Source of the DNA: Clostridia bacterium
GTDB lineage: Bacteria > Bacillota > Clostridia > Christensenellales > Aristaeellaceae
Direction: 5' to 3'
NCBI GenBank assembly: GCA_017429695.1
Contig: JAFROK010000059.1
Coordinates: 1-45,127, forward strand
DNA length: 45,127 nt
The number at the start of each line of letters is the position of its first letter. Positions within the stretch are counted from its first letter, which is position 1. Positions 8,613 to 45,127 of the stretch are shown piece by piece. Under the pieces are notes generated by a model. It had not been told where the DNA came from and ran no database searches. It saw only the letters and a program-made list of their open reading frames with translations. The position numbers were made by a program, and so were the translations under genes.

Positions 8613-8873
8613 TCAGCTCGCTCCCCAGGGTTCCTCATACCCCATGGCCCGGTCGCTGTCCTCCAGTCCGGCAGTAGTGGGATCCACGATCACGCCGATG
8701 AGTCCCAGGAAAGTCAGCACCTGGTTCAACAGCTGCACCACCAGGTTCTGGGTCACTGCCGGGAACACATCAAACAGCGCCAGCAGGCTGTAGATAAAGC
8801 CCACCACCAGGCTGAAGAAGCTTCCCAGCCACACCTTGTTCTTAAAACGCACTTTCCAGTTAATTCTCATCAT
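8613..8873 (-). CDS. Phage holin, phi LC3-type
   Basis: An 86-residue holin that should make the membrane lesion letting the endolysin reach the wall. It opens with INWKVRFKNKVW, the family signature, then has a transmembrane helix (about 15-35) and a second hydrophobic part (about 43-62) ending in GVIVDPTTAGLEDSDRAMGY, which is typical of Phage_holin_1. Start codon doublet ATGATG follows AAGGAGGAACG. It sits nine bases behind the XhlA-like gene and downstream of the endolysin, the usual lysis cassette. It is the last gene of the scattered phage module. Confidence 0.92.
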   Translation of the reverse strand: MMRINWKVRFKNKVWLGSFFSLVVGFIYSLLALFDVFPAVTQNLVVQLLNQVLTFLGLIGVIVDPTTAGLEDSDRAMGYEEPWGAS

Positions 8874-8882
8874 CGTTCCTCC

Positions 8883-9101
8883 TTACAGATGTTTGATTTC
8901 CTTCAGTTCGTCCTGCAGGTTTTTGACGGTTTCCTCCAGGCGGAACATCCGTTCCACCACGCTGTTGTGCTTATCCACTTTCTCCTCCAGTTTTTCCAGC
9001 CGGTAGGATACAAGCGCCGTCTGCTTCCGGTTGCTCACATAAACGCCCAGGAACGCGAACCCCGCCGTAATAAGTGCGACCACAATCGTCTCGATGTTCA
9101 A
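8883..9101 (-). CDS. XhlA-like small membrane coiled-coil lysis protein
   Basis: A 72-residue protein with an N-terminal transmembrane helix (about residues 4-22), then a coiled coil (EKLEEKVDKHNSVVERMFRLEETVKNLQDELKEI). This layout is that of XhlA/BhlA-type proteins that work with holins in PBSX-like prophages. It lies between endolysin and holin on the same strand. The family assignment rests on architecture and position. Confidence 0.78.
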   Translation of the reverse strand: MNIETIVVALITAGFAFLGVYVSNRKQTALVSYRLEKLEEKVDKHNSVVERMFRLEETVKNLQDELKEIKHL

Positions 9102-9117
9102 TCCGTTTCACTCCTTT

Positions 9118-9243
9118 CGATTCACAATTCATAATTTTGTGATCGCTGTTACCAAAGTCCCTTCAGGACTTTGACAGCTGTAGCATGGCAGTTGTTACCC
9201 AAATCAAAAATTTGGACAACTGCTCAATAATTCACAATTATGA
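9118..9243. repeat. Modular double-hairpin element, copy R2, bordered by heptamer arrays
   Basis: Heptamer units (9118-9137) lead into GTGATCGCTGTTAC, a hairpin with stem CAAAGTCC/GGACTTTG, then ACAGCTGTAGCATGGCAGT, a second hairpin CCAAATCAAAAATTTGG inside GTTGT/ACAAC, and a second heptamer stretch (9226-9243). The same constant joints with other hairpins occur at 16323-16546 and 20166-20262. Its right part codes for the last residues of the endolysin. Confidence 0.75.
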
Positions 9244-10001
9244 TTTGTTAACGCCTTCCAGGTGTTGGGACCTACTACTCCGTCTACGATCAATCCATGG
9301 TCTTTCTGGAACGCCTTCACCGCTGCCAGGGTTGCCTTCCCGAATATGCCGTCAATTCCACACGAACCCACGTCATATCCCAACTCAACCAGTTTTGTCT
9401 GGCACTCCTTAACAACCCTTCCTTTGCAGCCCTTCAGAATCGTCTTATGGTCATTCACTCCCTTTAATTGTTCATTGTGCATTGTTAATTGTTCATTCCC
9501 ACCGGCGTAATCGACGCCGGTGAGCTCTCCCCAGTGCGTCCACTTCCCGGCGCTGACCTTTGTCGTAGTCACGCCCTTGATCGTCCCCATGGCCTCAATC
9601 ACGATTCCATCGCCCACATACAGCCCCACATGGCTGTAATTGCTGCCGTTCCAGACGAAGACCGCGGTGCCGGGCTTCAGGGTTCCCTGATCCGTCCGCT
9701 TCCCCTTGTTCAGTTCTCCCTTGTTCACGCAATATTTCCGGTACATGGTGTCAGAGCCGTGGTACATCGTCCCGCCCAGCTTCCTAAAAGCCCACGAAAA
9801 AAGGCCGCTGCAGTCAGCGACCGTGTGCCCGATCCATTTGCTCCCGTACTTCCGCCCCTGGGCCCGGCTGGAATCCGTTGTCTTTTCCAGTTCCTTCTGT
9901 TTTGCCTCCGTCCAGGCTTCCCCGGCCGTACCCCAGATATAGCCCCAGTGCTCGTCCAGCGCCTGCCGGAATTTTACGATCAATGCTTCCGGTGTAATCA
10001 T
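9204..10001 (-). CDS. Phage endolysin: NlpC/P60-like amidase/peptidase plus peptidoglycan-binding domain
   Basis: A 265-residue peptidoglycan hydrolase. The N-terminal half (about 1-165) is a papain-like NlpC/P60 domain with catalytic Cys in ADCSGLFSWAF and His in NYSHVGLYVGDG. The C-terminal part (about 190-250) is a PG_binding_1 domain (CQTKLVELGYDVG, GIDGIFGKATLAAVKAFQKDHGL, DGVVGPNTWKAL). The linker NEQLTMHNEQL is encoded by a heptamer array, and the last 14 residues after WKALTNH come from the neighbouring repeat R2, with the stop codon in its hairpin. Upstream GGGGG supports the start. In phages this gene follows the baseplate/fibre genes and precedes the holin, as here. Confidence 0.92.
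   Translation of the reverse strand: MITPEALIVKFRQALDEHWGYIWGTAGEAWTEAKQKELEKTTDSSRAQGRKYGSKWIGHTVADCSGLFSWAFRKLGGTMYHGSDTMYRKYCVNKGELNKGKRTDQGTLKPGTAVFVWNGSNYSHVGLYVGDGIVIEAMGTIKGVTTTKVSAGKWTHWGELTGVDYAGGNEQLTMHNEQLKGVNDHKTILKGCKGRVVKECQTKLVELGYDVGSCGIDGIFGKATLAAVKAFQKDHGLIVDGVVGPNTWKALTNHNCELLSSCPNF
9466..9500. repeat. Heptamer array inside the endolysin gene
   Basis: Five 7-base units (AATTGTT, CATTGTG, CATTGTT, AATTGTT, CATTCCC) lie within the coding region and encode the linker between the catalytic and binding domains. Confidence 0.8.
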
Positions 10002-10016
10002 TCAATTCCCCCTTAA

Positions 10017-10053
10017 AAATAATTCATAATTCACAATTCATAATTCATAATTT
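10017..10053. repeat. Heptamer array upstream of the endolysin
   Basis: CATAATT/CACAATT units in tandem lie just upstream of the endolysin ribosome site. The remainder of the gap to 10273 has only two small hairpins, TTTTGCCT-TCG-AGGCAAAA near 10152 and GCGGC-TTTC-GCCGC near 10241. Confidence 0.85.
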
Positions 10054-10273
10054 TGTTTTCATGCCTGTACTATGATGATGTTCCTGTCACCTTCCTGAAC
10101 GTGTAGTGAAAAAGAGATCTGCCGCTCATTGATCCTGATTTCTGAATTCATTTTGCCTTCGAGGCAAAAAAGCAATGTCTATTTTTCTCTTTTTGCCCTG
10201 TTTCCGGATTCCCGGCTGTCATATGATGTATGCAGTAAAAAAGCGGCTTTCGCCGCATTTGGAGGAAGATATC

Positions 10274-10570: not shown

Positions 10571-10999
10571 CTATGCATTATGCATTGTCCCGATCCCCGC
10601 TGGGATCGGGAATACTTTACTCACCTCCACAGGTGATGAGCCCGTTATGGAAACCGTTCCGTCCCCGTTGTCTGTCTGCGTACTGCCCGGCAGGGCGATA
10701 CCCAGCACTTCGGGGACGGTTTTGTTTGTCCCGTCCAAGCTCCACAGGGCCAGCTTCGCCAGCAGGTACTGCCGGAAGGTTTCATCCGGCACATCCGTTC
10801 CAATATCGGTACGGTTCAACCCGATGGCTGCCGCGATCTGATCCAGCTGAACCCCTTCCGCTTCTTCAAAGGAAAACCCCGCCTGCAGCTGCGCAGCCAG
10901 TGCCGCCAGGTCCGATGCCTGCCACAGCACTGCCTCCACCAGCGCCATAAAACGGGGCCGGTCCCGGGAGGCGCCCGGGAAAAGAGAAAGCCATTCCAT
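10571..10999 (-). CDS. Phage tail/baseplate protein, DUF2612-like
   Basis: A protein of about 142 residues starting MEWLSLFPGASRDRPRF, placed 13 bases behind baseplate J. It has LAAQLQAGFSFEEAEGVQLDQIAAAIGLNRTD and DETFRQYLLAKLALWSLDGTN, typical of the small protein that follows J in contractile phages and links the baseplate to fibres. The final codons, giving TMHNA and the stop, lie in a heptamer repeat (ATGCATAATGCA). The native C-terminus may therefore have been trimmed. The start at 10999 has GGGGGAAAAAGG upstream. Confidence 0.83.
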   Translation of the reverse strand: MEWLSLFPGASRDRPRFMALVEAVLWQASDLAALAAQLQAGFSFEEAEGVQLDQIAAAIGLNRTDIGTDVPDETFRQYLLAKLALWSLDGTNKTVPEVLGIALPGSTQTDNGDGTVSITGSSPVEVSKVFPIPAGIGTMHNA

Positions 11000-11012: not shown

Positions 11013-11930
11013 TTACACAAAATGTATCGTAATGCCCGTACCCGGCGCCGCGGAGATCTTTTCATTCCACGCGCAGGGAACCAGATCCCGGATCACGCCG
11101 GAAACTCCGGGCACGCTGACCTGGACATCCGTGACCACAAAGGTCTTCGCGATGGACGGATCCGCGGCATAGGCAACCCCGTACAGCTGCGGCACGTTCA
11201 GCGAAACCGTCAGGCCGAGGCTGTCCAGGTACTCCGTTACCGCGGGAAGCACCGCGTTCTGGATTGTTTCCTGGTTTCCGCCTTCCACCACCCGGATATA
11301 CAAATGGAGAAAGATCCTCTTTTCTGTAAACCGGGTAAACGCCACCGTATGCTCCCGCCCCTCCGCGTCCGTCGCGATGCCGGAGTTGCTGCCCCAGGTT
11401 CCGATTCCCGGCGCCTTTTTGTCATAGATAGCCTGGGCCACCGCGTTTGCCCCGCCGGCCCGGGTAACCACGGCGATGCTGTGGGCTGGAATGCCGATGC
11501 TGTCCGTACTGTCCGTTTCATTGATGTACATCACCGCGTCCCGGACGCCCCTGGCGGCTTTCACCGCCGCCAGCAGGGCATCCGCGGTACCTGATCCCCG
11601 GCCTGCCAGGGAATGCCGGATCCGGTCACGGACCGAAGCATCGGTCTCCCCGGCCTCCCGGGTGATCCCGTACTGGGGCAGCAGCAGATCCAGCGCCTGG
11701 CCCGTCGCATACGCCGGATTCCGGCTGTTATAGGCCTGCAGCATCAGGGCGGATACGTCGTCCAGCGCTTTGGCAAAAACGGAAAGCAGCTGGTAATCCG
11801 GCACGGAAGCGGACAGATCCGCTTCAATGCCGAAGATGCTCCTGTACGCCGCTGTCAGCTCTTCCAGCCGATCCTCATAGGTCGGAAGATGAATGCCCGC
11901 AGCGTCAATGTATGGGGCAAAATAAGCCAT
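11013..11930 (-). CDS. Baseplate J-like protein
   Basis: A 305-residue baseplate wedge protein of contractile tails. It opens with MAYFAPYIDAAGIHLPTYEDR and the typical FGIEADLSASVPDYQLLSVFAKALDD segment, and has GQALDLLLPQYGITREAGETDASVRDRI and a central GIPAHSIAVVTRAGGANAVAQAIYDKKAPG (trimerisation and jelly-roll region). The C-terminus ends GTGITIHFV. Length matches short J proteins of PBSX-like elements. The gene is intact, has AAGGAGG upstream and forms a pair with 10571. Confidence 0.94.
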   Translation of the reverse strand: MAYFAPYIDAAGIHLPTYEDRLEELTAAYRSIFGIEADLSASVPDYQLLSVFAKALDDVSALMLQAYNSRNPAYATGQALDLLLPQYGITREAGETDASVRDRIRHSLAGRGSGTADALLAAVKAARGVRDAVMYINETDSTDSIGIPAHSIAVVTRAGGANAVAQAIYDKKAPGIGTWGSNSGIATDAEGREHTVAFTRFTEKRIFLHLYIRVVEGGNQETIQNAVLPAVTEYLDSLGLTVSLNVPQLYGVAYAADPSIAKTFVVTDVQVSVPGVSGVIRDLVPCAWNEKISAAPGTGITIHFV

Positions 11931-12050: not shown

Positions 12051-12536
12051 GTGACCAACGAAGCCTTTACCGAGGCCGTCATCCGGATGACGCCCACGCT
12101 CTACCGGATCGCCCGCGGCCAGCTGCTGATCGAGGCGGATCAGCAGGATGCCGTACAGGAGGCCATCCGCCGCAGCTGGGAAAAGCGAAACAGTCTGAAG
12201 AATGAGCGCTATCTGCAGACCTGGGTCATTCGCATTCTCCTGAACGTGTGCCATGATATCCAGCGGCATGGAAAAAGGGAGTTCCCGGTTGAAGAACTCC
12301 CTGAACGGTCACTGGCGGCACCGGATTATATCGACCTGCGGGACGCCCTGTTCCGGCTGAAGGAAAAGGAACGCGTCCCCGTCATCCTGCATTATGTTGA
12401 AGGATATGACGTAAAGCATGTCGCGGAAATCCTGAAGATTCCTGTCAATTCTGTCAAAACCCGGCTCATGCGTGCCCGGGCCCATCTGCGGAACATCCTG
12501 AACGAGGAGGCGCTTGAAGACAATGAAACGAAATGA
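12051..12536 (+). CDS. ECF-type RNA polymerase sigma factor
   Basis: A 161-residue ECF sigma factor with GTG start and AGGAGG at proper spacing. Region 2 is short: FTEAVIRMTPTLYRIARGQLLIEADQQDAVQEAIRRSWEKRNSL, then YLQTWVIRILLNVCHDI. Region 4 is VPVILHYVEGYDVKHVAEILKIPVNSVKTRLMRARAHLRNIL. The D-Q-Q-D-A-V-Q-E motif is the usual region 2.2 core. It overlaps the next gene by 14 bases. It lies between the phage J gene and the gp25 gene. Confidence 0.92.
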   Translation: MTNEAFTEAVIRMTPTLYRIARGQLLIEADQQDAVQEAIRRSWEKRNSLKNERYLQTWVIRILLNVCHDIQRHGKREFPVEELPERSLAAPDYIDLRDALFRLKEKERVPVILHYVEGYDVKHVAEILKIPVNSVKTRLMRARAHLRNILNEEALEDNETK

Positions 12537-14901
12537 AGATTTCAGAAAAGCATTGGGCGAGCCGGATGAGTACTTCCGGCAGTCCGTCATTGATACACTG
12601 GATCAGCTGAACATGCAGGCGGAAAAGAAGAGCCGCCCGCAAAGGAGATATTCCACCCGGATCATTGCCTCCTTTGCCGCGCTGGTGCTGGCTGTCACCG
12701 GCATTGTCCTGGGCCGCCGCTATATTCCGGGCATCTCCCCGGACGGGCATATTGACGCCATCAACCCCACACCCACGGTCGCTACCCAGCTTGCAAAATC
12801 AGCTTCTGTTGTGGAAACAGACCTGGCAACGCTTTCCATCCGGAATACCGGAATTGATGGGAATACAGTATATGTTTCCGTGGAAGTCATGCCCCGGAAA
12901 AAGAAAAGCCTTGCCCTGAACTGGAGCCTCAAACCTTATTCTGATTCAGTTACCAAAATCGGGAAAACACCGGATTACGAAGGGCAAACCGTTATGGGCT
13001 GGGCCCGGGAACACGGTTATGAAGAAATCATCCGCGTTGTCTTCAGCAATGCGTTTGAGCCCCTGACGCCTGGTGTTGTGGACGCCCCATTTGACCAGCA
13101 AACCGGTATTGTTCCTGCTCCTGCTTTTGATTCCCTTTGCATCAACCATTCGGAATATGAGGACAACGGCGCCACTCTCATTTATGTCACCGGCAATTTG
13201 CTTCCGGACACGAAAGAATATATGCTTGGGTTTGTGCTTCAGACCTGGGACATGACGCTGACAGACCATGCCGTTCATGACTCTGCCATCAGTATTGATC
13301 CGCAAATTTTCGGCAACATTCCCTTCACGATCGGTGAACCGGAGAAACCGGAAGTGATTGCGGAATACAGACGCGCGTCAGATCCGGAGAATCCGAATAT
13401 AACCCTCTCGCTTCTCAGAACCTCTTATTCTGATTTTTATGAAATCAGGACGAATAACACGCATGATGCCCAGGAATATACGGGTACCTCCATTTTCGAA
13501 TATGATAACGGCCTTCCCATCCCCATTTCAGTCAGCATTTTGCCCGGAGTCGAAATCCAGCCGGAAGGAGACAACGACCCATACGTCTTCAGGCGTGCCT
13601 GTGACATTAACGATGTTCCCGAAAAGCTGTCCCTGTTCCTTGTCTCAGGACAGATGCAGGAGTTTATCCTGACGTCCTCCCGCGCGGGCACTCCAACCGG
13701 TAACAGCACAGCAAGAAAAGTGGTACCGCCACTTGAAGAATACTCTGCACAGGCATGGGCAGTCACAGCCGAATCCCTCTCTGACCTGTATGAAAACGCA
13801 GAAGCCCGAATCGGCCAGGTGTACTGTGTCAAAGGTGTCGTAGAAAACACTTTCCTGGACGACCATTTAGGCCGGGTAATCATCAACGTCGGTGAAAACG
13901 GTCAATATCTGCCGGTCTGCGTTGAAAGCTCTGAAGATTATCCTTTTACCTGGAAAGTCGGATCTTACTACCAGATCTATGCGGATGTTACTTCCATTGA
14001 GGGTAACATGCCCATACTGACCGCCCGTTATTCCTTTACCATGTCTGAAAATATAGCCATAGGAACGGACTTTGCCACCCTGAAAGTCCGAGAAGCAAAA
14101 ACAGACGGGTACGGTGTATTCCTGCAGGTTGAAGTGCTGCCCCAAAACGAAAAGACCCTGGTTGTGGCAAACACTCTCAACATCATGAATGATTCTGTCA
14201 GGAAACTGGGAATAGACGAGCGGAAAAGCATTTATCAATGGGCTGTTGACAATCATTATCAGCTTCTGATTGTTGATTTCAACTCACCGGCAGATACCAC
14301 AGACAACGATACTGATCCTGACCGCGGTTTCCATTCTTACTGGAATGAGCCTTCCTTTACCTCTGAAAACGGCTCCACGGTCATCAGTGCAGCCAGGGAT
14401 GCGATCCCGGATACTGCCCAATATGAACTGGGCTATACCCTGGCTTATATTGATCAGGATCCCTCAGGCAATCCGGTCCATCATTCTTTGGCAGAAGGCG
14501 TCATTCCCGTTACTGTCACCGAAACCGAAGAACCGAAGGTTATCGCTGAATACAAGGCTGTCAGTGAACCGTCCGCATATTTCGACAATCCCGACGCAAC
14601 CCTCACTCTCCTTCGGAGCCCCTGGTCGGATTATTATGAATTCCGATCCAGTCATACGGATCATGCGTTCCCTGATAAAACCCGTTATAACTTTGAACTC
14701 TCCAATGACTTTTTTACCGACGGTGATTATGTCGAATATTGCGTGGGAAAGAACAACTTCAAGATCTCTTATCAGGCGATAGAAGATGACAACACGTTTG
14801 TTGTCCGTCATTCCTGTACCTTCCCTGAAAAGTTTCCGGAGCACCTCCGCCTGAATGATCCCTCCAATATTTTCTCCGGCTTATTCGAAAAGGTGCAGTA
14901 A
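12523..14901 (+). CDS. Large membrane-anchored anti-sigma-like protein with duplicated extracellular domains
   Basis: About 792 residues, co-encoded with the sigma factor at 12051. A cytoplasmic N-terminus (about 1-45) is followed by one transmembrane helix (about 46-66) and a long extracellular part. That part has two homologous halves, the first starting at TDLATLSIRNTGIDG and the second at TDFATLKVREAKTDG, each with a later VIAEY...TLSLLR or TLTLLR and SD(F/Y)YE(I/F)R segment. Between them lies an OB-like domain (QVYCVKGVVE ... NMPILTARYSFT), also present at the C-terminus of the 33362 protein. It resembles DUF4179-type anti-sigma proteins. Sensing of an extracellular ligand is inferred. 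The stop is 12 bases from the convergent phage stop at 14914. Confidence 0.75.
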   Translation: MKRNEDFRKALGEPDEYFRQSVIDTLDQLNMQAEKKSRPQRRYSTRIIASFAALVLAVTGIVLGRRYIPGISPDGHIDAINPTPTVATQLAKSASVVETDLATLSIRNTGIDGNTVYVSVEVMPRKKKSLALNWSLKPYSDSVTKIGKTPDYEGQTVMGWAREHGYEEIIRVVFSNAFEPLTPGVVDAPFDQQTGIVPAPAFDSLCINHSEYEDNGATLIYVTGNLLPDTKEYMLGFVLQTWDMTLTDHAVHDSAISIDPQIFGNIPFTIGEPEKPEVIAEYRRASDPENPNITLSLLRTSYSDFYEIRTNNTHDAQEYTGTSIFEYDNGLPIPISVSILPGVEIQPEGDNDPYVFRRACDINDVPEKLSLFLVSGQMQEFILTSSRAGTPTGNSTARKVVPPLEEYSAQAWAVTAESLSDLYENAEARIGQVYCVKGVVENTFLDDHLGRVIINVGENGQYLPVCVESSEDYPFTWKVGSYYQIYADVTSIEGNMPILTARYSFTMSENIAIGTDFATLKVREAKTDGYGVFLQVEVLPQNEKTLVVANTLNIMNDSVRKLGIDERKSIYQWAVDNHYQLLIVDFNSPADTTDNDTDPDRGFHSYWNEPSFTSENGSTVISAARDAIPDTAQYELGYTLAYIDQDPSGNPVHHSLAEGVIPVTVTETEEPKVIAEYKAVSEPSAYFDNPDATLTLLRSPWSDYYEFRSSHTDHAFPDKTRYNFELSNDFFTDGDYVEYCVGKNNFKISYQAIEDDNTFVVRHSCTFPEKFPEHLRLNDPSNIFSGLFEKVQ

Positions 14902-14913: not shown

Positions 14914-15276
14914 TCAGTATTCATAACTGATCCCGGCCGTCCCGTTCTCCGTAACAATCTCACAGGAGTAACGGAACTGCCTTCCCTCAACGGAAACCTT
15001 TACCTCCCGGACGTCTAGTACGCCGGGAGTTTTCCTTATGAAGCCGGATACATAATTGGCCAGCACCTGCTGATCCGCTTCCGTCAGCCTGGATTCCTTC
15101 AGCATCTCCAGGATGCCGTTTCCCCAGGCCGGGTTTTCCCACCATTCTCCGGTCAGCAGCCGCAGCCGGTTCCGGACAAGTTCCGACTCTGCCCGGACAC
15201 CTGTCAGCAAATCGGAAGCAGACAATACAGGCAGAATATCGCCGGAATCATCCACAGGTCTGATAAACATTCTCAA
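14914..15276 (-). CDS. Baseplate wedge protein, gp25/DUF2634-like
   Basis: A 120-residue protein of the T4 gp25/XkdS class that joins sheath and baseplate. It starts MRMFIRPVDDSGDILPV and contains GVRAESELVRNRLRLLTGEWWENPAWGNGILEML, with the Glu-rich segment typical of the family, and DQQVLANYVSGFIRKTPGVLDV. It overlaps the preceding spike gene by four bases (ATGA), so the two are translated together. The position between spike and J is exactly as in contractile phages. Confidence 0.88.
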   Translation of the reverse strand: MRMFIRPVDDSGDILPVLSASDLLTGVRAESELVRNRLRLLTGEWWENPAWGNGILEMLKESRLTEADQQVLANYVSGFIRKTPGVLDVREVKVSVEGRQFRYSCEIVTENGTAGISYEY

Positions 15277-15653
15277 ACTCCTTTCGCTCGAAATCCGACG
15301 AATGCGAAGGCGTCTGACAGGGAATGCTGCCTGCCGGATAAAGGAACCTCCGCCCCGCCGGACTCAAACCAGGCATCAATGTCGCAGTCTGCGAAAACCA
15401 GCAGGCAGGCATCCCCCGGGTTCACCTCAAAGGGCACGGGCATAAAAACCGGCACGTCCCGGAGCATCGGCATTTCGCAGGGTCCTCCGTTTCTCAGTCT
15501 GCGTTTCACCGCCGGGCGGACGGAAGCCGTCCCACTTTCCGGATCAAAGGCTTCCACAGTCCCCGGCAGGGCACAGTGAAGGGAGGCAAGAATCTCCGTC
15601 TTCAGCGCCTGGATGCCGGAAGGAAACCTCTCCGTTTCAGTCGAATTATTCAT
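15273..15653 (-). CDS. Baseplate spike-like protein, Gp138/DUF2577 region
   Basis: A 126-residue protein starting MNNSTETERFPSGIQALKTEI with GAGGTGA upstream. It has an OB-fold-like core: GTVEAFDPESGTASVRPAVKRR, then CEMPMLRDVPVFMPVPFEVNPGDACLLVFADCDIDAW, and a tail RQHSLSDAFAFVGF. This is the pattern of Gp138 N-terminal domains, the membrane-puncturing spike of contractile tails, in a minimal form without a long needle. A longer reading frame continues upstream, but the ATG at 15653 is the one with a ribosome site. It starts 42 bases from the divergent phosphoesterase gene. Confidence 0.83.
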   Translation of the reverse strand: MNNSTETERFPSGIQALKTEILASLHCALPGTVEAFDPESGTASVRPAVKRRLRNGGPCEMPMLRDVPVFMPVPFEVNPGDACLLVFADCDIDAWFESGGAEVPLSGRQHSLSDAFAFVGFRAKGV

Positions 15654-15695: not shown

Positions 15696-16238
15696 TTGAA
15701 ACTGCTGATTGCTTCGGATATACACGGTTCCGCCCTGTACTGCGGAGAACTGCTGAAAGCTTATGACCGGGAGAAAGCGGACCGGATGCTCCTGCTGGGC
15801 GACGTTCTTTATCACGGGCCCCGCAACGACCTGCCCGACGGCTATGCCCCGAAGGAAGTCATTCCCGCCCTGAACGCGCGAAAGAACGACATCCTCTGCA
15901 TCCGGGGAAACTGCGACACGGAAGTGGACCAGATGGTGCTGGACTTTCCCCTGATGGCGGACTATGCCCTGCTGTGCATTGACGGCCTCCGGATTTACGC
16001 CACCCACGGCCATGTTTACAACCCGGATCGTATGCCGCCGCTTCAGCCCGGCGATATCCTGCTCTACGGCCATACCCATATCCCCGCCTGGGATCACCGG
16101 GACGGCGTCCTGTGCCTGAATCCCGGCTCTGTCTCCATCCCGAAAGCCGGTTCCGAAAGAAGCTACATGATCCTCGAAAACGGCACCTTTACCTGGAAAA
16201 CGCTGGACGGGAAGGAATACCACACTGTTAATGCATAA
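15696..16238 (+). CDS. YfcE/MJ0936-type metallophosphoesterase
   Basis: A 180-residue calcineurin-like phosphodiesterase. The metal ligands are visible in order: SDIHGS, LLGDVLYHG, RGNCD, THGHVY and GHTH. These set up the two-metal active site that cleaves phosphodiesters in YfcE-like enzymes. It starts at a TTG with AAGGAG upstream. Its last codons (HTVNA and the stop) lie at the start of a heptamer array, so the end of the gene has been shaped by the repeat. The gene is inserted between phage hub and spike genes. Confidence 0.9.
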   Translation: MKLLIASDIHGSALYCGELLKAYDREKADRMLLLGDVLYHGPRNDLPDGYAPKEVIPALNARKNDILCIRGNCDTEVDQMVLDFPLMADYALLCIDGLRIYATHGHVYNPDRMPPLQPGDILLYGHTHIPAWDHRDGVLCLNPGSVSIPKAGSERSYMILENGTFTWKTLDGKEYHTVNA

Positions 16239-17874: not shown

Positions 17875-17895
17875 TTTCAATTTACCTCCTACTTC

Positions 17896-38307: not shown

Positions 38308-38329
38308 ACCCTCACGGAGTAATGGCAAT

Positions 38330-38953
38330 ATGAAAATCGGAGTCATCCAGGCAAGTTCCCAGGCTTCCAAAAACAGCCTGATATACAATACGGTCCGAAA
38401 GTATGCCCCGGATGCGGAAGTGATCAACTTCGGCTGCACGGAAGACGAGCAGGAACGCTACAGCTATATCGAGATTTCCCTGCTGGCCGGGATGCTGCTG
38501 GCCAGCGGCGCGGTGGACTTTATCGTCACCGGCTGCTCCTCCGGCCAGGGCATGATGCTCGCCTGCAACAGCTTCCCGGGGGTACTGTGCGGCTACGCAC
38601 CCACCCCGGCGGACGCTTACCTCTTTGCCCAGATCAACAACGGCAATGCTGTTTCCCTGCCCCTGGGAGAGGAATACACCTGGACCGGAGAAGAAAACTT
38701 TGAGGCCACCATTGCCCGCCTTTTCTCGGAACCTTTCGGCCAGGGCTGGCCCAAGGGAGAATCCGCCCGGAAGCTCCGGGATACGGAACTGCTGAAGAGC
38801 ATCCGCCGAAGTTCCCAGGTATCTGCCGTTGAGTTGTTGAATTCCCTGGACAAGTCCGTACTGAAAAGCATCCTGAGAAAACAGAATGTCATCGAATATA
38901 TTCTGAAACATGGCAACGAAGAGATAAATCAATTCATAATTCACAATTCATAA
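38330..38953 (+). CDS. RpiB/LacAB-type sugar-phosphate isomerase
   Basis: A 207-residue isomerase-like protein. The N-terminal domain has MKIGVIQASSQASKN, GAVDFIVTGCSSGQGMMLACNSFPGVLCGYAPTPADAYLFAQINNGNAVSLPLG, with the catalytic Cys/Ser-Gly pocket of RpiB. The later part has a C-terminal helical extension. The last residues, NQFIIHNS, are encoded by a heptamer array (TTCATAATTCACAATTCATAA), so the gene end has been replaced by the repeat. It probably interconverts ribose/ribulose 5-phosphate or a related sugar. Confidence 0.87.
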   Translation: MKIGVIQASSQASKNSLIYNTVRKYAPDAEVINFGCTEDEQERYSYIEISLLAGMLLASGAVDFIVTGCSSGQGMMLACNSFPGVLCGYAPTPADAYLFAQINNGNAVSLPLGEEYTWTGEENFEATIARLFSEPFGQGWPKGESARKLRDTELLKSIRRSSQVSAVELLNSLDKSVLKSILRKQNVIEYILKHGNEEINQFIIHNS

Positions 38954-38962
38954 TTCATAATT
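38930..38962. repeat. Heptamer array at the 3' end of the RpiB-like gene
   Basis: CATAATT/CACAATT units supply the isomerase's last codons and stop. Confidence 0.85.
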
Positions 38963-38996
38963 TGTGGCTTATACACCAAATGGAGAATCTGTACAC

Positions 38997-39437
38997 ATGG
39001 ACATTCGCATTGTTGACAACGACATCCGCCTGATTCCCTACTACCGGAACGACGAGGTTTCCCTGGCCTGGTACCAGGACCTGGATGTTTGCAAACAAGT
39101 GGATAACATCGATCACACCTACGACCTGGAAACCCTGCATAACATGTATGATTACCTGTCCTCCCACGGCGACTGCTATTATATCGAGTACCAGGGCGTG
39201 CTGGTGGGCGACGTCTCCCTGCGGGAGAACAAGGAAGTCGCCATCGTCATCTGCAAGGAATACCAGAACCGGCACATCGGCCGGAAGTGCGTCATGGATA
39301 TGCTGAAGCTGGCAAAAGAAAAGGGCTATGACAAGGTCATCGCCAGCATCTATACCTTCAACGAGCAGAGCAAGAGCATGTTCCGGGCGCTGGGCTTCGT
39401 GCAGACCGGCGAAGAAGACTTTGAACTGATACTGTGA
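38997..39437 (+). CDS. GNAT-family N-acetyltransferase
   Basis: A 146-residue acetyltransferase. It starts MDIRIVDNDIRLIPYYRNDEVSLAWYQDLDVCKQVDN, has VSLRENKEVAIVICKEYQNRHIGRKCVMDMLKLAKEKGYDKVIASIYTFNEQSKSMFRALGFVQTG, with the RHIG acetyl-CoA loop. The ATG at 38997 has GGAG 11 bases upstream; a longer start would sit next to the heptamer array. The next gene starts eight bases after its stop. Confidence 0.9.
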   Translation: MDIRIVDNDIRLIPYYRNDEVSLAWYQDLDVCKQVDNIDHTYDLETLHNMYDYLSSHGDCYYIEYQGVLVGDVSLRENKEVAIVICKEYQNRHIGRKCVMDMLKLAKEKGYDKVIASIYTFNEQSKSMFRALGFVQTGEEDFELIL

Positions 39438-39444
39438 GGACTCC

Positions 39445-40068
39445 ATGGATATTCAGCGCATAGACAACTATACAGATACCCGTTTTTCAAAGACAGTGCT
39501 GGAGCAGCACGGCGCTTACCTGATTGACAATGATCCCTATGAAATCAAAATCACAGGCCCGGCGGAAGCAACAGTCCGCGGGAAGGATCCGTCCGTGTAT
39601 GCGGAGCTGATTGAGGAATTCCGTTTCCACGCACCGCATATCACCCGTTTCTTTGATGAAGCCGGTTCCCTGCTTGCGGAGTATCCGGTGCCGGAGATAA
39701 TTGAGGTAGAGATCGACCGGATCCAGCCATCCCAGTTCTTTGTTGATGAGGAGAAGCTGGCCGCCATCCGGAGCTTTATCCATCAGCCGGAAGACGTCAT
39801 TATCCAGGTGCTTCCCTGGAACGACCGGTTCATCTCCCTGGACGGTCATACCCGTCTGTACGCAGCTGTGCAGGAGGGTTTTCCATCCGTGAAGGCAGTT
39901 ATCAGCGAAACAAACGAATGGGTCTGGCCCTTTGTCTTGGAAGCGGAGAAAAGAAAAATCTTTAGTCCCCGGGATCTGATCCTGCTTTCCCATGACGATT
40001 ACGAGGTTCAGTGGAACCAGTACTGCGATTCCGTTTTTGCGCAGCAAGATCCCAACGCTGACGGATAA
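39445..40068 (+). CDS. ParB/sulfiredoxin-like domain protein
   Basis: A 207-residue protein with a ParB-like core: EVEIDRIQPSQFFVDEEKLAAI, then VLPWNDRFISLDGHTRLYAAVQEGFPSVKAVI. The DGHTRLYAA segment matches the nucleotide-binding box of ParB/Srx-type domains (GxHRxxA). The N-terminal third is unlike known families. There is no helix-turn-helix, so it is not a partition protein. Its role is unknown. It is encoded close behind the GNAT gene, likely in one transcript. Confidence 0.75.
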   Translation: MDIQRIDNYTDTRFSKTVLEQHGAYLIDNDPYEIKITGPAEATVRGKDPSVYAELIEEFRFHAPHITRFFDEAGSLLAEYPVPEIIEVEIDRIQPSQFFVDEEKLAAIRSFIHQPEDVIIQVLPWNDRFISLDGHTRLYAAVQEGFPSVKAVISETNEWVWPFVLEAEKRKIFSPRDLILLSHDDYEVQWNQYCDSVFAQQDPNADG

Positions 40069-40170
40069 CCAGACATATTTTTCCATATCAGTCCTTTATT
40101 CAGGGCTGATATATATTTATACTGTATCCATGAAGATCAATGAAGCCCAGGGAAGGAGTGAAACCCGTTC

Positions 40171-40353
40171 ATGAACAGAATCCAGTTTCTCCCGATTCTT
40201 TCAACGGTTTTCCTCTGCCTGGTTTTTGCCGCCGGCTATTTCGGCATATCGGTGCCGAATTATATTACAGCCGCAGCGCTTGCCCTGGAGTTTATCAATA
40301 TCAGCGTCCTGCTTGTCAAAGGGCTCTGGAGAAAGAAGGATAAAAATGATTGA
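40171..40353 (+). CDS. 60-residue two-helix membrane protein
   Basis: A small protein with two hydrophobic segments (about 5-22 and 29-49) and a basic tail (RKKDKND). It overlaps the next gene by eight bases. AAGGAG lies upstream at somewhat long spacing. No family is recognised. Confidence 0.62.
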   Translation: MNRIQFLPILSTVFLCLVFAAGYFGISVPNYITAAALALEFINISVLLVKGLWRKKDKND

Positions 40354-40495
40354 TTTCCTGTTTGATGCAGCCGAGGTTGTCCTGGACGTTATCATTAACA
40401 TATTCTCAGCGAAGCGGCGGAAACGCAAAGCCCAGCGCAAAGCGGAGGAAACCGGAGGAACCAGTGAACACACCGAAGATGAACAGGGAAAATAA
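40346..40495 (+). CDS. 49-residue amphipathic, basic protein
   Basis: It starts inside the end of the preceding gene (ATG at 40346, GAAAGAAGG upstream). The N-terminal helix (FLFDAAEVVLDVIINIF) leads to a Lys/Arg-rich stretch (AKRRKRKAQRKAE) and an acidic end. It overlaps the zinc-ribbon gene that follows, giving a set of three translationally coupled small genes. Confidence 0.6.
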   Translation: MIDFLFDAAEVVLDVIINIFSAKRRKRKAQRKAEETGGTSEHTEDEQGK

Positions 40496-40734: not shown

Positions 40735-41241
40735 TTACCTCTCCGTAACCTCATAGTCAAAATCGTTATACAGCGCACCGGTGTCAAGCAAAGGCTTGTC
40801 ACCGGTTTTCCCTTTGACCAGGACACCTTTCTTCGCCACCCGGTTATAAATCCATCCGCCGGAAAGGGTGACCGGGCTGTTGGGCGGATCAATCCCGGCG
40901 TCAATATATTCCCGGATACCCTCCGCACCCCGCTGTCCGGCATTCTCCAGCCCGGCCTGCGTGCCGGATAAATCGCCATTGTTTGCCGCCTCGCAGGCTT
41001 CCATCAGGCACTCCGCCATTTCCGCCCGCAGGGTTTCCCTTGCCAGGGCCGGCCGGACCACCGGCCGGGGCGGAATCCGCATGACCGGCGATCCCCGGGT
41101 ATGGATGGCCAGCAGGAACTTTGACCGGGCGGAAGCCCCGGACGTCAGGCCCACGTCCACCCGGTGCGTTTGCAGATACTTCAGGCATTTTGACCGTTTT
41201 TTGATTTGATCCGTATTCTCTGTGACTGTGATCTTCAGCAT
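40735..41241 (-). CDS. Phage minor head / tail completion protein (HK97 gp10/XkdI-like)
   Basis: A protein of about 168 residues in the head-tail junction slot. VGLTSGASARSKFLLAIHTRGSPVMRIPPRPVVRPAL and LSGTQAGLENAGQRGAEGIREYIDAGIDPPNSPVTLSGGWIYNRVAKKGVLVKGKTGDKPLLDTGALYNDFDYEV match neck/tail-completion proteins, in which the conserved PL(L/I)DTG segment lies near the C-terminus. Neither the ATG at 41241 nor that at 41271 has a ribosome site, so the native 5' end may have been lost next to the divergent host gene at 41323. Confidence 0.82.
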   Translation of the reverse strand: MLKITVTENTDQIKKRSKCLKYLQTHRVDVGLTSGASARSKFLLAIHTRGSPVMRIPPRPVVRPALARETLRAEMAECLMEACEAANNGDLSGTQAGLENAGQRGAEGIREYIDAGIDPPNSPVTLSGGWIYNRVAKKGVLVKGKTGDKPLLDTGALYNDFDYEVTER

Positions 41242-41322: not shown

Positions 41323-41985
41323 ATGGAAAGAACCACCCCTAACATTTCCAGCTCCCTGCGTCATGAGATCCTGAGGATTCCTGAGGCCACCTACGCGGCC
41401 ACCGGGATTATCATCAACGGCCGGCGGATCAAGAGCCTGGTATTCACCACAGACCTGGCCATCATCCGTAACTGTGACGCGGACGCTGTTTTCGCTGTAT
41501 ATCCCTTTACACCCCAGCAGGTCATCAGTGACGCGATCATCAAGGCGTCCTATATCCCTGTTTTCTGCGGCGTCGGCGGCGGCACCACCCAGGGCCTGCG
41601 CACCGTCACCCTGGCGAAGGACGTGGAATGCCAGGGCGCCATGGGCGTTGTGCTCAACGCGCCGATTACCAACCCGAACCTGAGCGCCGTTGTCAAGGCG
41701 GTGGATATCCCCGTCATCATCACGGTCACCAAACCGGATACGGATATTGAAGCCCGGCTGGACGCCGGCGCCTCCATCCTGAACGTCGCCGGCGGTGCCG
41801 CCACACCGGATATTGTTCGCAGCATCCGGGAGCGCTTCCCGGAGGTTCCCATCATCGCCAGCGGCGGAAACACGGATGAGAACATCGAGAAGACGATCCT
41901 GGCCGGGGCAAACGCAATCACCTATACCCCGCCCACTACCAACGACCTGTTCAAGGCCCTCATGGAAAAATACAGGGAAGAATAA
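41323..41985 (+). CDS. TIM-barrel phosphate-binding protein of unknown reaction
   Basis: A 220-residue protein with a beta/alpha-barrel pattern: strands ending in VFAVYPF, IPVFCGVGGGT, AMGVVLNAP, IPVIITVTKPDT, ASILNVAGGAAT, PIIASGGNTDENIEKTILAGANAITYTPP. The glycine pairs near the C-terminal strands (GGAAT, ASGGNT) form a phosphate-binding cup as in ThiG, PdxS or flavin-type barrels. It is often annotated as a hydrolase in Clostridia, without proof. GAAAGGAG precedes the ATG. Its stop is four bases from the stop of the convergent connector gene. Confidence 0.78.
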   Translation: MERTTPNISSSLRHEILRIPEATYAATGIIINGRRIKSLVFTTDLAIIRNCDADAVFAVYPFTPQQVISDAIIKASYIPVFCGVGGGTTQGLRTVTLAKDVECQGAMGVVLNAPITNPNLSAVVKAVDIPVIITVTKPDTDIEARLDAGASILNVAGGAATPDIVRSIRERFPEVPIIASGGNTDENIEKTILAGANAITYTPPTTNDLFKALMEKYREE

Positions 41986-41989: not shown

Positions 41990-42394
41990 TCAGGGAATAT
42001 AGACTGACCGGCTGTACAGCCGGATCAGCGACAGCAGCTGCAGTCCAAAGGTGGTTTCCGGCAGATCCGCCAGGACCGTGGACGCAGCGGAAGAAGCAGA
42101 GGAGGCGCCGGCCGCGTAAGTGACCGACACCTCCCCTGCTTTTTTACCTGTAATCCGCTGCGGCTGCCCTGCCGCGGCGATCTGCGCTTTGGTAGCGGCG
42201 ATCTCGTCGGGCAGGGCTGTGCGGGCATACAGCGTCAGCTTATGCGCCGCGTACAGCCGCCGGGCCTCCTCCGCGTCCTCCGCCGTGAAGGCGGAGAAAC
42301 GGGCATTGGCCTGGGCAATACAGGAGGATAAAACAAAAGCGGGCGTAAAGCCCGCAAATTGTGGATAATAGGATTTAAACTCCGATTCTGTCAA
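41990..42394 (-). CDS. Phage head-tail connector (DUF4054-like)
   Basis: A 134-residue protein starting MTESEFKSYYPQFAGFTPAFVLSSCIAQANARFSAF, then EEARRLYAAHKLTLYARTALP and the C-terminal LADLPETTFGLQLLSLIRLYSRSVYIP with the conserved T-x-x-G-x-Q/L segment (adaptor-protein fold). It starts at a TTG codon, with GAGG as ribosome site inside the end of the LRR gene, and overlaps it by 20 bases. It would join portal and tail in the head-tail joint. Confidence 0.84.
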   Translation of the reverse strand: MTESEFKSYYPQFAGFTPAFVLSSCIAQANARFSAFTAEDAEEARRLYAAHKLTLYARTALPDEIAATKAQIAAAGQPQRITGKKAGEVSVTYAAGASSASSAASTVLADLPETTFGLQLLSLIRLYSRSVYIP

Positions 42395-43820
42395 AGTTTG
42401 ATTCCTCGTACAGGTCGCTCAGATCCGGAAGGTCCAGCTTCACGCAGTTCTCAAAGGCGTCGGGGCCGACGTTTTCCAGTTCCTCCGGCAGCTCGATGCT
42501 TTCCAGTGCCAGGCAGTTGGAGAAGGCCTTGTCGCCGATCACTTCCACCGGATCGGGAATCACGATTTCCTTCAGCGTGTAGCAGCAGAAGAAGGCGCTT
42601 TCACCGATTTCCTCCAGATCGTCCGGCAGCCGGATGTCCGTCAGGGCAATGCAGCCGGAGAAGGTGAAGGGATTGATCGAATAGGTCCAGGAAGGCATCA
42701 CCATGCTCTGCAGGGACTGGCAGCGGCAGAAGGCCTTGGCGCCGATGAAGCTGCAGGTATCCGGAATGGAGACGTTTGTCAGGCTGATGCAGCCGTCAAA
42801 CGCTTCGCTGCCGATGTAATCCACTGCAGCGGGCAGGGTCACACTGGCCAGGCTTTCACAGTTCTGGAAAGCGCCGCCGCCGATGTAGAACAACTCGTCC
42901 GGCAGGATCAGTTCAGTCAGGTTTGTGCAGCCCGCGAAGGTGTTCTTGCCGATGGTGGTCAGGTCCACAGGCAGGCGTACGGAGGTGAGGCTTTCACAGT
43001 TCCGGAAGGCCATCTCCCCGATGAAGGTAATGTTTTCCGGGAAAACCAGTTCCGTCAGGGCGGTGCAGTCCTGGAAGGCACGCTCCGCAATGGAGGTTAC
43101 CTTCGCCGGGAAGGTGATGCTCTTCAGCTTGCGGCAGCCGTTGAAGGCGTCCGCACCGACAGTGGAGATATTGGTATCATGCAGGTTAATATACCGCAGA
43201 TTATCGCACTGGTAGAATGCCCGCCGGCCGATCGCCCGCACCGAGTCGAAAACAACCACCTGGGCGAGGCTTTCATTGCCGTAGAAGGCGGACGCACCGA
43301 TAATGCGGGTTCCATCCGGCAGCGTATACGCGCTGTATTCCTTGGTCATCGGATAGCAGATCAGGCGGCTGTCATCCCGGCTGAACAGTACTCCGTCGTT
43401 CAGGTACAGGTTCGGGTTTCCTTCGGCAACCGTCATATCCGTCAGCCATGCGCAGCCTTCAAAGGGATTCATGCCGACCACTGTCAGGGTAGCGGGCAGG
43501 CTCACCTTCTCCAGGTTGGCGCAGCGGCGGAAAGCGTAATCTCCGAGGGAGACCAGGCCGTCTTTAATTTCCAGCTCTTCCAGGTAATCATCCGCCTGGA
43601 AAGCGGAAGGCCCGATGGCCGTAACCTTGATCCCGTTCAGTTCCTGCGGAATGACCAGGGAGGTCTCCGTACCTTCATACAGGATGATCTCTGCAGTGCC
43701 GTCATGCTGGATGATATAGGTATAATCCCCGGCCTTCTGGCTCTGCTCCGCAACAGCGGCCGGAAGGATACAGCAAAGGAAGAGAACGCAGACTATCAGA
43801 GCTGCTGCGAACTTTCTCAT
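42375..43820 (-). CDS. Secreted BspA-type leucine-rich repeat protein
   Basis: A 481-residue exported protein (signal peptide about 1-25). It consists of about 15 TpLRR/BspA repeats of some 23 residues each, of the kind LTELVFPENITFIGEMAFRNCESL, with the constant A(F)xxCxxL. Such repeats form a solenoid that binds surface ligands. The last residues, SNFDRIGV, come from bases that are also the start of the connector gene in another frame, so the tail was formed when the gene joined the phage gene. The ATG at 43820 follows GGGAGGGG. Confidence 0.9.
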   Translation of the reverse strand: MRKFAAALIVCVLFLCCILPAAVAEQSQKAGDYTYIIQHDGTAEIILYEGTETSLVIPQELNGIKVTAIGPSAFQADDYLEELEIKDGLVSLGDYAFRRCANLEKVSLPATLTVVGMNPFEGCAWLTDMTVAEGNPNLYLNDGVLFSRDDSRLICYPMTKEYSAYTLPDGTRIIGASAFYGNESLAQVVVFDSVRAIGRRAFYQCDNLRYINLHDTNISTVGADAFNGCRKLKSITFPAKVTSIAERAFQDCTALTELVFPENITFIGEMAFRNCESLTSVRLPVDLTTIGKNTFAGCTNLTELILPDELFYIGGGAFQNCESLASVTLPAAVDYIGSEAFDGCISLTNVSIPDTCSFIGAKAFCRCQSLQSMVMPSWTYSINPFTFSGCIALTDIRLPDDLEEIGESAFFCCYTLKEIVIPDPVEVIGDKAFSNCLALESIELPEELENVGPDAFENCVKLDLPDLSDLYEESNFDRIGV

Positions 43821-43890
43821 CCGTACCCCTCCCATCATGCTGTTCTATTCTGCCTTTTTGTGTCATATAATCATATCGTGTTTTCGCCTG

Positions 43891-44250
43891 TTAGTCAATT
43901 TTTTTGTTGTTTTCTGCCGCAGTGGAATCCACCTGTGGCGCGGTTTTTGCGGCGTTTTGCTTCCGGCCGGATGGATTCGGGCGCGTTTCCCCCTCCGGAG
44001 AGGGGGCGGCAGGCACTTTCCGGCCTGTCGCATCCGTGCCCTCCAGCGGCTCCGCTTCAAGCTTTTTCCGCTGTACGGAGGTCACTGCCGCCTCCAGGGA
44101 ACCGTCATTCAGCAGCATCTGGAACAGGGGATCCTCGCGGATGGCCTCCGGGGCTTCCCGGAAGGTCAGGCGCGTTTCCGGGGTAACCCGGTGAATCACT
44201 GCGCCGGTATGATCACGAAACTCGGCGCAGACACGGGACAAAATGAGCAT
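43891..44250 (-). CDS. Small phage head-region protein
   Basis: A 119-residue protein starting MLILSRVCAEFRDHTG, with TPETRLTFREAPEAIREDPLFQMLLNDGSLEAAV, then a Pro/Ala-rich tail. It sits between capsid and connector genes and GAAAGGAG lies before the ATG at 44250. Sequence and position fit a small head decoration or assembly protein; no firm family. The longer frame begins inside a heptamer array. Confidence 0.68.
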   Translation of the reverse strand: MLILSRVCAEFRDHTGAVIHRVTPETRLTFREAPEAIREDPLFQMLLNDGSLEAAVTSVQRKKLEAEPLEGTDATGRKVPAAPSPEGETRPNPSGRKQNAAKTAPQVDSTAAENNKKID

Positions 44251-44271
44251 AGGTTTTCTCCTTTCAGTCGA

Positions 44272-44306
44272 AAACAATTCACAATTCATAATTCATAATT
44301 CACAAT
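44272..44306. repeat. Heptamer array upstream of the 43891 gene
   Basis: AATTCAC/AATTCAT units, ending in a partial palindrome CAATTCACAATTCATAATTC with its inverse. Confidence 0.85.
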
Positions 44307-44423
44307 TGTTTTCAACATTAACAGACATTCTGGACTTACAATAGCATTGACATTATCATTTCGATCAAGATTGCAGATGACTACAGGAGCAATTTCACCC
44401 CGCAATTCTACAGAAGTTCAGCA
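44307..44423. other. Unexplained spacer between two inverted heptamer arrays
   Basis: The 117 bases contain no open frame or strong hairpin. Arrays of opposite orientation lie on both sides (44272-44306 and 44424-44462), so the block has the appearance of a short inverted-repeat-flanked insertion. Confidence 0.4.
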
Positions 44424-44462
44424 ACTCATAATTATGAATTATGGATTGTGAATTATGAATTG
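44424..44462. repeat. Heptamer array downstream of the capsid gene
   Basis: GAATTAT, GGATTGT and GAATTAT units follow the capsid stop at 44468. Confidence 0.82.
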
Positions 44463-44467
44463 ACGGA

Positions 44468-45127
44468 TCAGATTCCATCTAAATATCTGATGGTAGAGGG
44501 ATACAAGAACCTTACCTCGGAGAACTGAGCGATATAGGGGATTTTGATCCGCATTTCGGAGTACTCCGTGTCCATCCGGCGCAGGGGCTGGGTGAGGTTG
44601 AAGCAGATCCGGTCCACCCGGTTCATATAAACCACCATGCGGTCAGATCCGTTGCTGCCCACGCCGCCGCACCACTTGCAGGGAGAAATGGTCAGCTCAC
44701 CGCCCTGCTGCACAGACAGGTTGTTCTCCAGCACATAGGTCAGGATGGACCGTTCAGAGTCGTCGGACACCTTGCGGGTCACCAGCTGGCCAAACTGCTC
44801 CACAGGGATCAGGATATGGTTCGGCAGAGCGTCGGAGGAGCAGTCGTTGTCCTTCCAGAGGGCGGAAATGGCCCTGTTGATGTCCGCCAGGATCTCATCC
44901 GCCGTCTTGTTGTCCCAGGCCGTGTCCGTTCCGCCCGGGGTATGCGGTGCCGCGGAAGACCGGGTGATATTCGGGTTATTGCACAGGCCCGTGGAGGAAA
45001 CCTTGGTAAAGCCGGTATAAACGTTGCGGTCAATCAGCTTGTCGCAGTGCAGGCGGATACCCTTGTTCAGGAAAGTTTCCGGATCCCGGCCGACCTGCAG
45101 CATCTTCTCCCGCTCCATGGTGGAGAA
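44468..45127 (-). CDS. Major capsid protein, DUF2184-like (partial)
   Basis: At least 216 residues of a larger protein whose N-terminus lies beyond the right window edge. NKTADEILADINRAISALWKDNDCSSDALPNHILIPVEQFGQLVTRKVSDDSERSILTYVLENNLS and the C-terminal DRMVVYMNRVDRICFNLTQPLRRMDTEYSEMRIKIPYIAQFSEVRFLYPSTIRYLDGI match the C-terminal HK97-like core of DUF2184 capsid proteins. The frame is open up to the edge. Presence of a capsid gene argues against a tail-only bacteriocin. Confidence 0.85.
   Translation of the reverse strand, partial: FSTMEREKMLQVGRDPETFLNKGIRLHCDKLIDRNVYTGFTKVSSTGLCNNPNITRSSAAPHTPGGTDTAWDNKTADEILADINRAISALWKDNDCSSDALPNHILIPVEQFGQLVTRKVSDDSERSILTYVLENNLSVQQGGELTISPCKWCGGVGSNGSDRMVVYMNRVDRICFNLTQPLRRMDTEYSEMRIKIPYIAQFSEVRFLYPSTIRYLDGI

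Follow-up and report, generated by a model that had tools for sequence, protein, structure and literature searches.

The closest described counterparts of the locus studied here are PBSX of Bacillus subtilis, a contractile-tailed particle made from a chromosomal defective prophage and in this similar to our locus, and the gene transfer agents (GTAs). RcGTA is siphovirus-like with a short tape measure, and to our knowledge its main cluster is not interleaved with host genes. RcGTA (Rhodogtaviriformidae) is described as phage-derived particle genes inherited with the host and maintained by selection, lying in part in separate loci and lacking a phage replication module, and BhGTA (VSH-1) of Brachyspira as genus-wide, co-diversified with its host, provided with a single TerL and encoded by dispersed phage genes (PMC9662315). 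FpGTA of Faecalibacterium belongs to gut Clostridia, has its phage-derived genes in more than one locus, is widespread in its genus and includes lysis genes (PMC12946183). In most of these respects they resemble a gene cluster of a Clostridia bacterium of the family Aristaeellaceae (GenBank assembly GCA_017429695.1, here G000; 3.03 Mb in 60 contigs, estimated to be 88% complete). The cluster was found on contig JAFROK010000059.1 (G000:C57), and this entire stretch of 45,127 nucleotides is referred to as the window.

In the window, 20 minus-strand phage structural and lysis genes run in phage order from the major capsid gene to the holin gene (8613-45127), with host genes between them. We hold it very probable that they belong to a domesticated, selected and vertically inherited contractile-particle cluster. 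Our preferred reading, to which we give a probability of about 0.58, is that a single genus of gut Clostridia maintains a domesticated Pam3/XM1-like contractile particle as a host function and that it works as a GTA, that is, transfers genes. The evidence consists of gene content and layout, purifying selection, co-diversification with RpoB, a frameshift signal, the distance of tyrosine integrases in four genomes and the interruption of the capsid gene in relatives.

Particle genes and shared layout

A purpose-built gene finder called 59 genes in the window. The phage genes, which occupy 29% of the span 8613-45127, were, apart from P53, compared with PHROGs; an E value of 1e-5 or better, or near it, was taken as a match and weaker ones are flagged as weak. 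The protein labels P20-P57, BP16, XhlA, SCAF (cement) and GP7 (DUF2213) are those of this analysis. The particle genes are the following:

44468-45127, minus: codons 105-323 of the major capsid gene, which the contig end truncates at the recombination junction (phrog_264, 1e-47)
43891-44250, minus: P57, small head-region protein, in the same place in relatives
41990-42394, minus: P55, head/connector protein (phrog_302, 3e-16)
40735-41241, minus: P53, virion-region protein without Pfam match; order conserved in relatives, 28% match to a phage AB434P2 protein
29060-29443, minus: P39, head protein (phrog_939, 1e-16)
28096-28647, minus: P37, protein of the connector/tail-completion region, a role suggested by its place (PHROGs 0.07, weak); order conserved
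26005-27111, minus: tail sheath (phrog_205, 9e-49; DUF3383; Pam3 sheath 8hdr_M, 8e-12)
24288-24722, minus: tail tube (phrog_280, 5e-15; KPP10_Orf10, 2e-16)
23833-24231, minus: tail assembly chaperone, slippery T-run at 23884-23892 (phrog_1688, 4e-5)
23660-23797, minus: stretch in which the chaperone's -1 frame extension is predicted to end, an open -1 frame overlapping the chaperone
19947-20870, minus: short tape measure, 307 aa (phrog_167, C-terminal match, 8e-4, weak; position; lengths in relatives)
18286-18801, minus: P21, tail protein (phrog_817, 2e-9)
17896-18207, minus: P20, virion protein (phrog_349, 0.0025, weak)
16539-17306, minus: baseplate hub (phrog_196, 1.6e-5)
15273-15653, minus: BP16, baseplate-region protein, 126 aa, start set by comparison with G022; position in relatives
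14914-15270, minus: baseplate wedge W (phrog_120, 1.6e-6)
11013-11930, minus: baseplate J (phrog_6, 3e-23)
10571-10948, minus: baseplate/tail-tip protein (phrog_587, 8.5e-10)
9204-10001, minus: endolysin with NlpC/P60 and peptidoglycan-binding domains (phrog_2649, 2e-20; PF01471, PF00877)
8883-9101, minus: small lysis-region protein, label XhlA (phrog_1863, of unknown function, 1.4e-11)
8613-8873, minus: holin (phrog_297, 5e-20)

The canonical order from capsid to holin reported by the first-pass annotation of the window was confirmed. Its statement that all phage frames are open holds for the tail and lysis genes, and the capsid frame stops short at codon 105, where the contig ends; in the related genome G022 the major capsid protein has 323 aa (PF09950). 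PHROGs matches were weak for the tape measure and for the genes at 17896 and 28096, and the scan gave no match for those at 15273 (in its 66-aa form) and 43891. Conserved order in relatives is the basis for assigning the tape measure and two or three of the small proteins to the module. Searches of the kind that linked the sheath to 8hdr_M also linked the capsid to 8hdt_A, annotated as 'Major capsid', and returned no match for the tail tube. In the window genes examined, which include some but not all of the small open reading frames, and in the mapped flanks we recognised no gene for an integrase, a repressor or replication, as had been noted before; this is not the content of an active temperate phage. 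The nearest tyrosine integrases (PF00589) are about 300 kb or more away in G022, G035, G002 and G044.

The module had been called complete, which proved too strong, since the TerS, TerL, portal, DUF2213 and cement genes lie beyond position 45127 and were seen in relatives only. G022 and G035 (on one contig each) and G002 (on two) match the window in their phage genes and in many of the genes interleaved with them. Just past the equivalent of the window's end, where a search for portal and terminase genes had been proposed, they continue upstream with cement, DUF2213, another gene, portal, TerL, TerS and two more genes. The domains found there are those of cement (E217/Pam3/XM1 families), Phage_portal_3, DUF2213 and Terminase_6; the gene between DUF2213 and portal is presumably MurJ-like and the two after TerS CobW-like, and the CobW flank is common to G007, G040 and G016. 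The gene finder called all 25 kinds of phage gene in G022, and it missed one (BP16) in G035 and in G002. A mis-assembly, which had been raised as an objection, is unlikely because the one-contig loci of G022 and G035 and the two-contig locus of G002 share the interleaved layout. The RpiB, TRIC and P53 genes are rearranged in G002, and in G035 the P53 gene is tandemly duplicated with part of its neighbour (map positions 31280-33869). G044 has a 32.6-kb version with few inserts, and in G018 and G042 the module, as labelled, spans about 16 kb with one insert each and a changed baseplate order. Conserved synteny, the first check suggested for the locus, was therefore found in G022, G035, G002 and, with fewer inserts, G044, as well as in further genomes.

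The sheath was matched in 32 of the 120 genomes searched, namely the source genome, 30 of the 44 other members of its genus and one genome of another genus. Searches with TerL and capsid added G004, G014, G024 and G026, which raises the count to 34 of the 44; the remaining ten genus genomes (54-91% complete) gave no match in the searches covering them. The capsid was matched in 36 of 300 genomes drawn from the family, and the eight of these outside the genus were distant (36-53% identity, some of them short pieces). The relatives are uncultured Clostridia or Clostridiales, many from ruminant guts. In IMG/VR, five contigs had a close capsid and two a close TerL. The IMG/VR contigs L129, L130 and L131 are virus-labelled and carry the capsid-to-tail module; upstream of the DUF2213 gene, L129 and L130 have plasmid-like genes, with no portal or TerL recognised.

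Selection, inheritance and competing explanations

The ratio of nonsynonymous to synonymous substitution rates (dN/dS) was calculated by the Nei-Gojobori method between seven pairs of genomes for each of the 25 phage genes, some genes being missing in some pairs. All values obtained were between 0.03 and 0.47. Capsid, portal and TerL were among the most constrained genes (0.03-0.17), and the sheath, tube, J and capsid genes, for which this calculation had been suggested, gave 0.03-0.26, which is not decay. The dS of the phage genes was similar to that of the neighbouring host genes; in the host comparison, the rows for SH3, leucine-rich repeat (LRR) protein, sigma partner and exchanger in G040 are probably not orthologous. 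The signature of a decaying prophage (dN/dS near 1, stops and frameshifts) was absent from the cluster genes. In addition, the slippery T-run of the chaperone and its overlapping -1 frame are kept in 21 of 21 loci; among these are the window locus and three contigs labelled as viral, of which two are near-identical.

RpoB was obtained from 23 of 30 genomes, the frame being picked by a conserved motif, and 16 of these also had TerL and portal. In these 16 genomes the distances of TerL plus portal followed those of RpoB (Mantel r 0.73, a value that none of 5000 permutations reached). The branching of the window's subclade, ((G016,G040),(G002,(G007,(G022,G001,G035)))), was the same in both trees, and the pairs G018+G026, G003+G009 and G044+G014 were recovered in both. 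Exactly one TerL match was present in 18 of 28 other genus genomes. The earlier proposal of a domesticated phage particle is thus well supported by the shared layout, the purifying selection and the portal and terminase genes of relatives. As expected of a GTA, the capsid, portal and terminase derive from tailed phages (in relatives, the window capsid being partial), and the cluster has co-diversified with its host, one pair being placed differently, and is maintained by selection. ComEC was found in nine of nine genomes checked.

It must be noted that several observations weigh against a host-owned GTA. TerL gave no match in 10 of the 28 genomes; five TerL-negative genomes (G011, G012, G013, G017 and G028) have a sheath match, and G012 has a portal and a different type of TerL on the lysis side of the module. 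The G044+G014 pair is placed differently in the TerL plus portal tree and in the RpoB tree, and the chromosomal flanks of the cluster differ between subclades. More than one structural copy is present in several genomes (e.g., G011, G020, G033, G041 and G042), some of them with stops (G011, G033). No tail-fibre gene was recognised in the window cluster, and four genomes (G001, G009, G010 and G036), and probably the window strain as well, have an interrupted capsid gene, as described below. Sister modules accompanied by replication genes and another type of TerL are present on contig G015:C32 and on the virus-like contig G356; given the closely similar modules in virus-like contigs, a recent exchange of the module with phages is possible. 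The tape measure is also short in G356 (288 aa), which weakens its shortness as a mark of domestication; it has 514 aa in L129 and 412-461 aa in G018, G042 and L114.

The source genome has a second, more divergent set of particle genes on G000:C55, C44, C10 and C25, in which TerL, portal and one sheath piece are truncated. The only TerL of G000 itself is a fragment from this degraded copy (C55), and the degraded second copies (C55, C44) show what dead copies look like.

The alternative that fares best, although we consider it unlikely, is a domesticated PBSX-like killer particle, which may package host DNA and would be kept for a contractile tail that kills competitors, without gene transfer. 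The contractile tail, endolysin and holin are kept and constrained, the cluster has no recognised fibre for delivery to kin, and PBSX offers the precedent of a contractile particle that packages host DNA. However, the constraint on capsid, portal and TerL exceeds the needs of a killer tail, and the families found are Pam3/XM1-like rather than those we take to be PBSX-like.

Somewhat less credible is a defective or helper prophage lineage whose module is still used by live phages or satellites and refreshed by recombination, with no host function. A live phage lineage does exist beside the cluster, as seen from the sister modules of G356 and G015:C32, with their replication genes and other TerL type, and from a prophage-like copy in G020 with a 1218-aa tape measure. 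The multiple copies in several genomes and the recurrence of one recombinase element in the capsid gene also agree with such a lineage, but co-diversification with RpoB, a dS like that of neighbouring host genes, and the interleaved genes and flank common to the window's subclade do not. We give very little credit to a slowly decaying prophage invaded by host genes: the interleaving, the interrupted capsid gene and the degraded extra copies in G000 would suit it, but purifying selection acts on all 25 genes across species (0.03-0.47), the frameshift site is conserved, and the gene set is complete in G022 and nearly so in G035, G002 and G044.

With regard to the capsid gene, it is broken at codon 104 in G001, G009 and G010, where a serine recombinase lies beside the C-terminal part; the recombinase is 99-100% identical among the three. 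In G036, part of the same recombinase is at a contig end beside a capsid part. The interruption sites are:

G001:C6, G009:C40, G010:C32 and C52, G036:C10: serine recombinase in the capsid gene

Compared with the reference, the capsid parts of G009, G010 and G036 show only 72-83% identity, versus 99% in the near-identical genome G001. About 21 kb separates the two parts in G009, and the G001 locus is without the N-terminal capsid part, the cement gene and most of the DUF2213 gene. The patchy occurrence of the interruption and the near-identity of the recombinase across species mark it as recent. The base at which the capsid gene of G001 is interrupted is also the exact end of the window contig and of G015:C92; the serine recombinase was searched for in the G000 and G015 assemblies and is not present in them. 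From these contig ends, the capsid gene of the window strain is probably interrupted too, and if so tail and lysis proteins would be made without heads; the strain itself, then, probably makes no heads. A tailocin, that is, a headless killing tail, would fit these interruptions and the open tail and lysis genes of the window, but it is the least probable explanation of all, since capsid, portal and TerL are intact and constrained elsewhere in the genus and the interruption is patchy and recent. The earlier argument that capsid plus lysis genes speak against a pure tailocin stands for relatives, in which the head genes are present and constrained, and has to be qualified for the window strain.

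Interleaved genes and proposed working

The interleaving of host genes, mostly on the opposite strand, was confirmed: 32 non-phage genes lie within 8613-45127, 27 of them on the plus strand. Among the identities proposed, HU, MerR/TipAS, a Na/Ca exchanger, a TRIC-type channel (PF03458), RpiB and two GNATs were recovered by Pfam; of the extracytoplasmic function (ECF) sigma pairs proposed, one sigma factor was confirmed. The interleaved genes are:

42375-43820, minus: BspA-type LRR protein, secreted-looking, on the phage strand (PF13306, 5e-114)
41323-41985, plus: non-phage gene with no family above the cut-off, conserved in relatives
29585-40495, plus, except 35288-37501 (minus): block with GNAT 32684, TRIC-type channel 37684, RpiB 38330, GNAT 38997 and others (Pfam)
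28742-29026, plus: HU (PF00216)
27297-28028, plus: MerR/TipAS regulator (PF07739, PF13411)
20974-23655, plus: histidine phosphatase 21545, SH3 22304, double-glycine (GG)-leader peptide 22876 and others
18869-19834, minus: Na/Ca exchanger, on the phage strand (PF01699, 7e-59)
15696-16238, plus: metallophosphoesterase (PF12850, 4e-23)
12051-14901, plus: ECF sigma factor (PF08281) and 792-aa partner gene without family

Over 19 loci, which are related so that the counts are not independent, 195 of 248 interleaved genes are antisense to the phage genes. The proportion is 148/171 over eight loci and 2/13 in a ninth, G009, where the genes are mostly cargo of the recombinase element. For comparison, 104 of 245 genes are on that strand in 12 flanking stretches, again of related loci. 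We read this bias as selection against inserts that stop transcription of the particle genes. Terminator-like sites at convergent junctions were counted for 50 genes of each kind and accompany 4 of the phage genes and 12 of the interleaved ones, versus 14 of 26 unit ends outside (Fisher, 2e-5 and 0.054, respectively), with no overall depletion of such sites on the minus strand of the window (18 vs 19). These counts, taken from related loci, are only suggestive of a read-through operon across the particle genes.

If the cluster works as a GTA, the minus-strand particle genes would be switched on in some cells, presumably by a trigger, and TerS and TerL would fill the capsid completely, pumping host DNA in through the portal. 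A short contractile tail would be assembled on the shortened tape measure with the help of the frameshifted chaperone, the cell would be lysed by the holin and the NlpC/P60 endolysin, and the particles would inject their DNA into kin. Host genes would have accreted between the particle genes, mostly antisense, and the latter may stay readable as long read-through transcripts. A bolder proposal, which we regard as tentative and on balance doubtful, is that of a genus-wide contractile GTA dissolving into the chromosome (in one subclade about 65% of the 43-kb cluster is non-phage, mostly antisense) and made from such transcripts, with the site-specific serine-recombinase element using the capsid gene as an attachment site and so switching production off, perhaps reversibly.

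Other features of the region were observed. The BspA-type LRR gene near P57 and P55 has a like place in G022, G035, G007, G040, G016, G009 and G003, and its product is a possible particle partner. HU was considered as a host-essential anchor of the cluster and rejected, since G000 has three HU genes, as do most of the ten genomes searched. Mostly intergenic arrays built of 7-base units (such as AATTRTG and AATGCAT) are found at 1614-1645, 10021-10052, 18260-18284, 24246-24277, 27137-27168, 28066-28097, 38931-38962 and 44276-44307. They are frequent in the window's subclade, and the pattern search found none in the mapped regions of G044, G009, G036, G012, G041, G017, G020, G008 and G042. A role as a control element specific to particle genes was rejected, because arrays lying next to host genes and beyond the cluster are likewise present in the same subclade. 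A palindromic REP-like repeat occurs at 9167-9237, 16327-16366 and 20206-20247, the last copy in frame within the tape-measure gene, and a Gut-1 RNA (Rfam RF01706, 58.8 bits) is located between particle genes at 17790-17876 on the minus strand. Just outside the cluster, at 5002-6497, there is a duplicated gene pair with DNA stretches 71-96% identical.

Small peptides with a double-glycine-type leader recur between particle genes (window 22876-23001, G016, G012, G020:C37 and G000:C10), several of them with what we take to be a LysM-like or glycine-rich core; the matches in the window, G022 and G035 are orthologues of each other. Within clusters, 245 kb of non-phage DNA contain 15 of these peptides, versus 3 in 385 kb outside (25 stretches), and the latter three adjoin the lysis end in G009. 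Their specificity for the cluster was rejected, given that one family is found at nine places in G012 and that such peptides occur elsewhere in G020 too.

Comparison with known systems

Among phages, the Pam3/XM1-type myophages and Agathobaculum phage AB434P2 have the same capsid, sheath, tube, cement and portal families as the cluster. AB434P2, the best capsid match in the phage collection (39.5% identity), also has the same gene order, but it is compact, its tape measure has 512 aa, its baseplate proteins are longer and the fibre position is taken by a 505-aa gene. Unlike the cluster, PBSX is compact, has its own regulators and is built from different protein families. The genus itself offers a graded series, from near-uninterrupted modules of about 16 kb (G018, G042) to the interleaved 43 kb of G022, which lets the absorption of a virus into a chromosome be watched; the question it raises is the co-expression of scattered particle genes. 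That several species have the recombinase element lodged within their capsid gene points to a possible conflict in which mobile elements act against a particle owned by the host. We place the genus of the window in the same order as Christensenellaceae.

GTA-like packaging has recently been reported in Christensenellaceae (3 of 25 events) without assigned genes, the search for genes in that study having covered only metagenome-assembled genomes of other genera (PMC12946183). In our search of the literature, which was not exhaustive and covered sources in part, we met neither a GTA interleaved with host genes nor a contractile one belonging to this group. Unlike RcGTA, which has a tail of 49 nm (PMC9662315), the present cluster would specify a contractile tail by its gene content, and host genes fill most of it. 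BhGTA has a flexible non-contractile tail and a structural cluster of 16.3 kb in which only the endolysin is related to known phage proteins (PMC9662315); the module described here, in contrast, has clear phage relatives and contractile tail genes. FpGTA, according to PMC12946183, is most likely podovirus-like, and its particles and their DNA of about 9 kb were demonstrated, whereas here a tail that would be contractile is predicted from genes. The GTAs described in PMC9662315 and PMC12946183 are either non-contractile or resemble podoviruses. If the present cluster is indeed a contractile GTA of gut Clostridia, it would represent another independent domestication.

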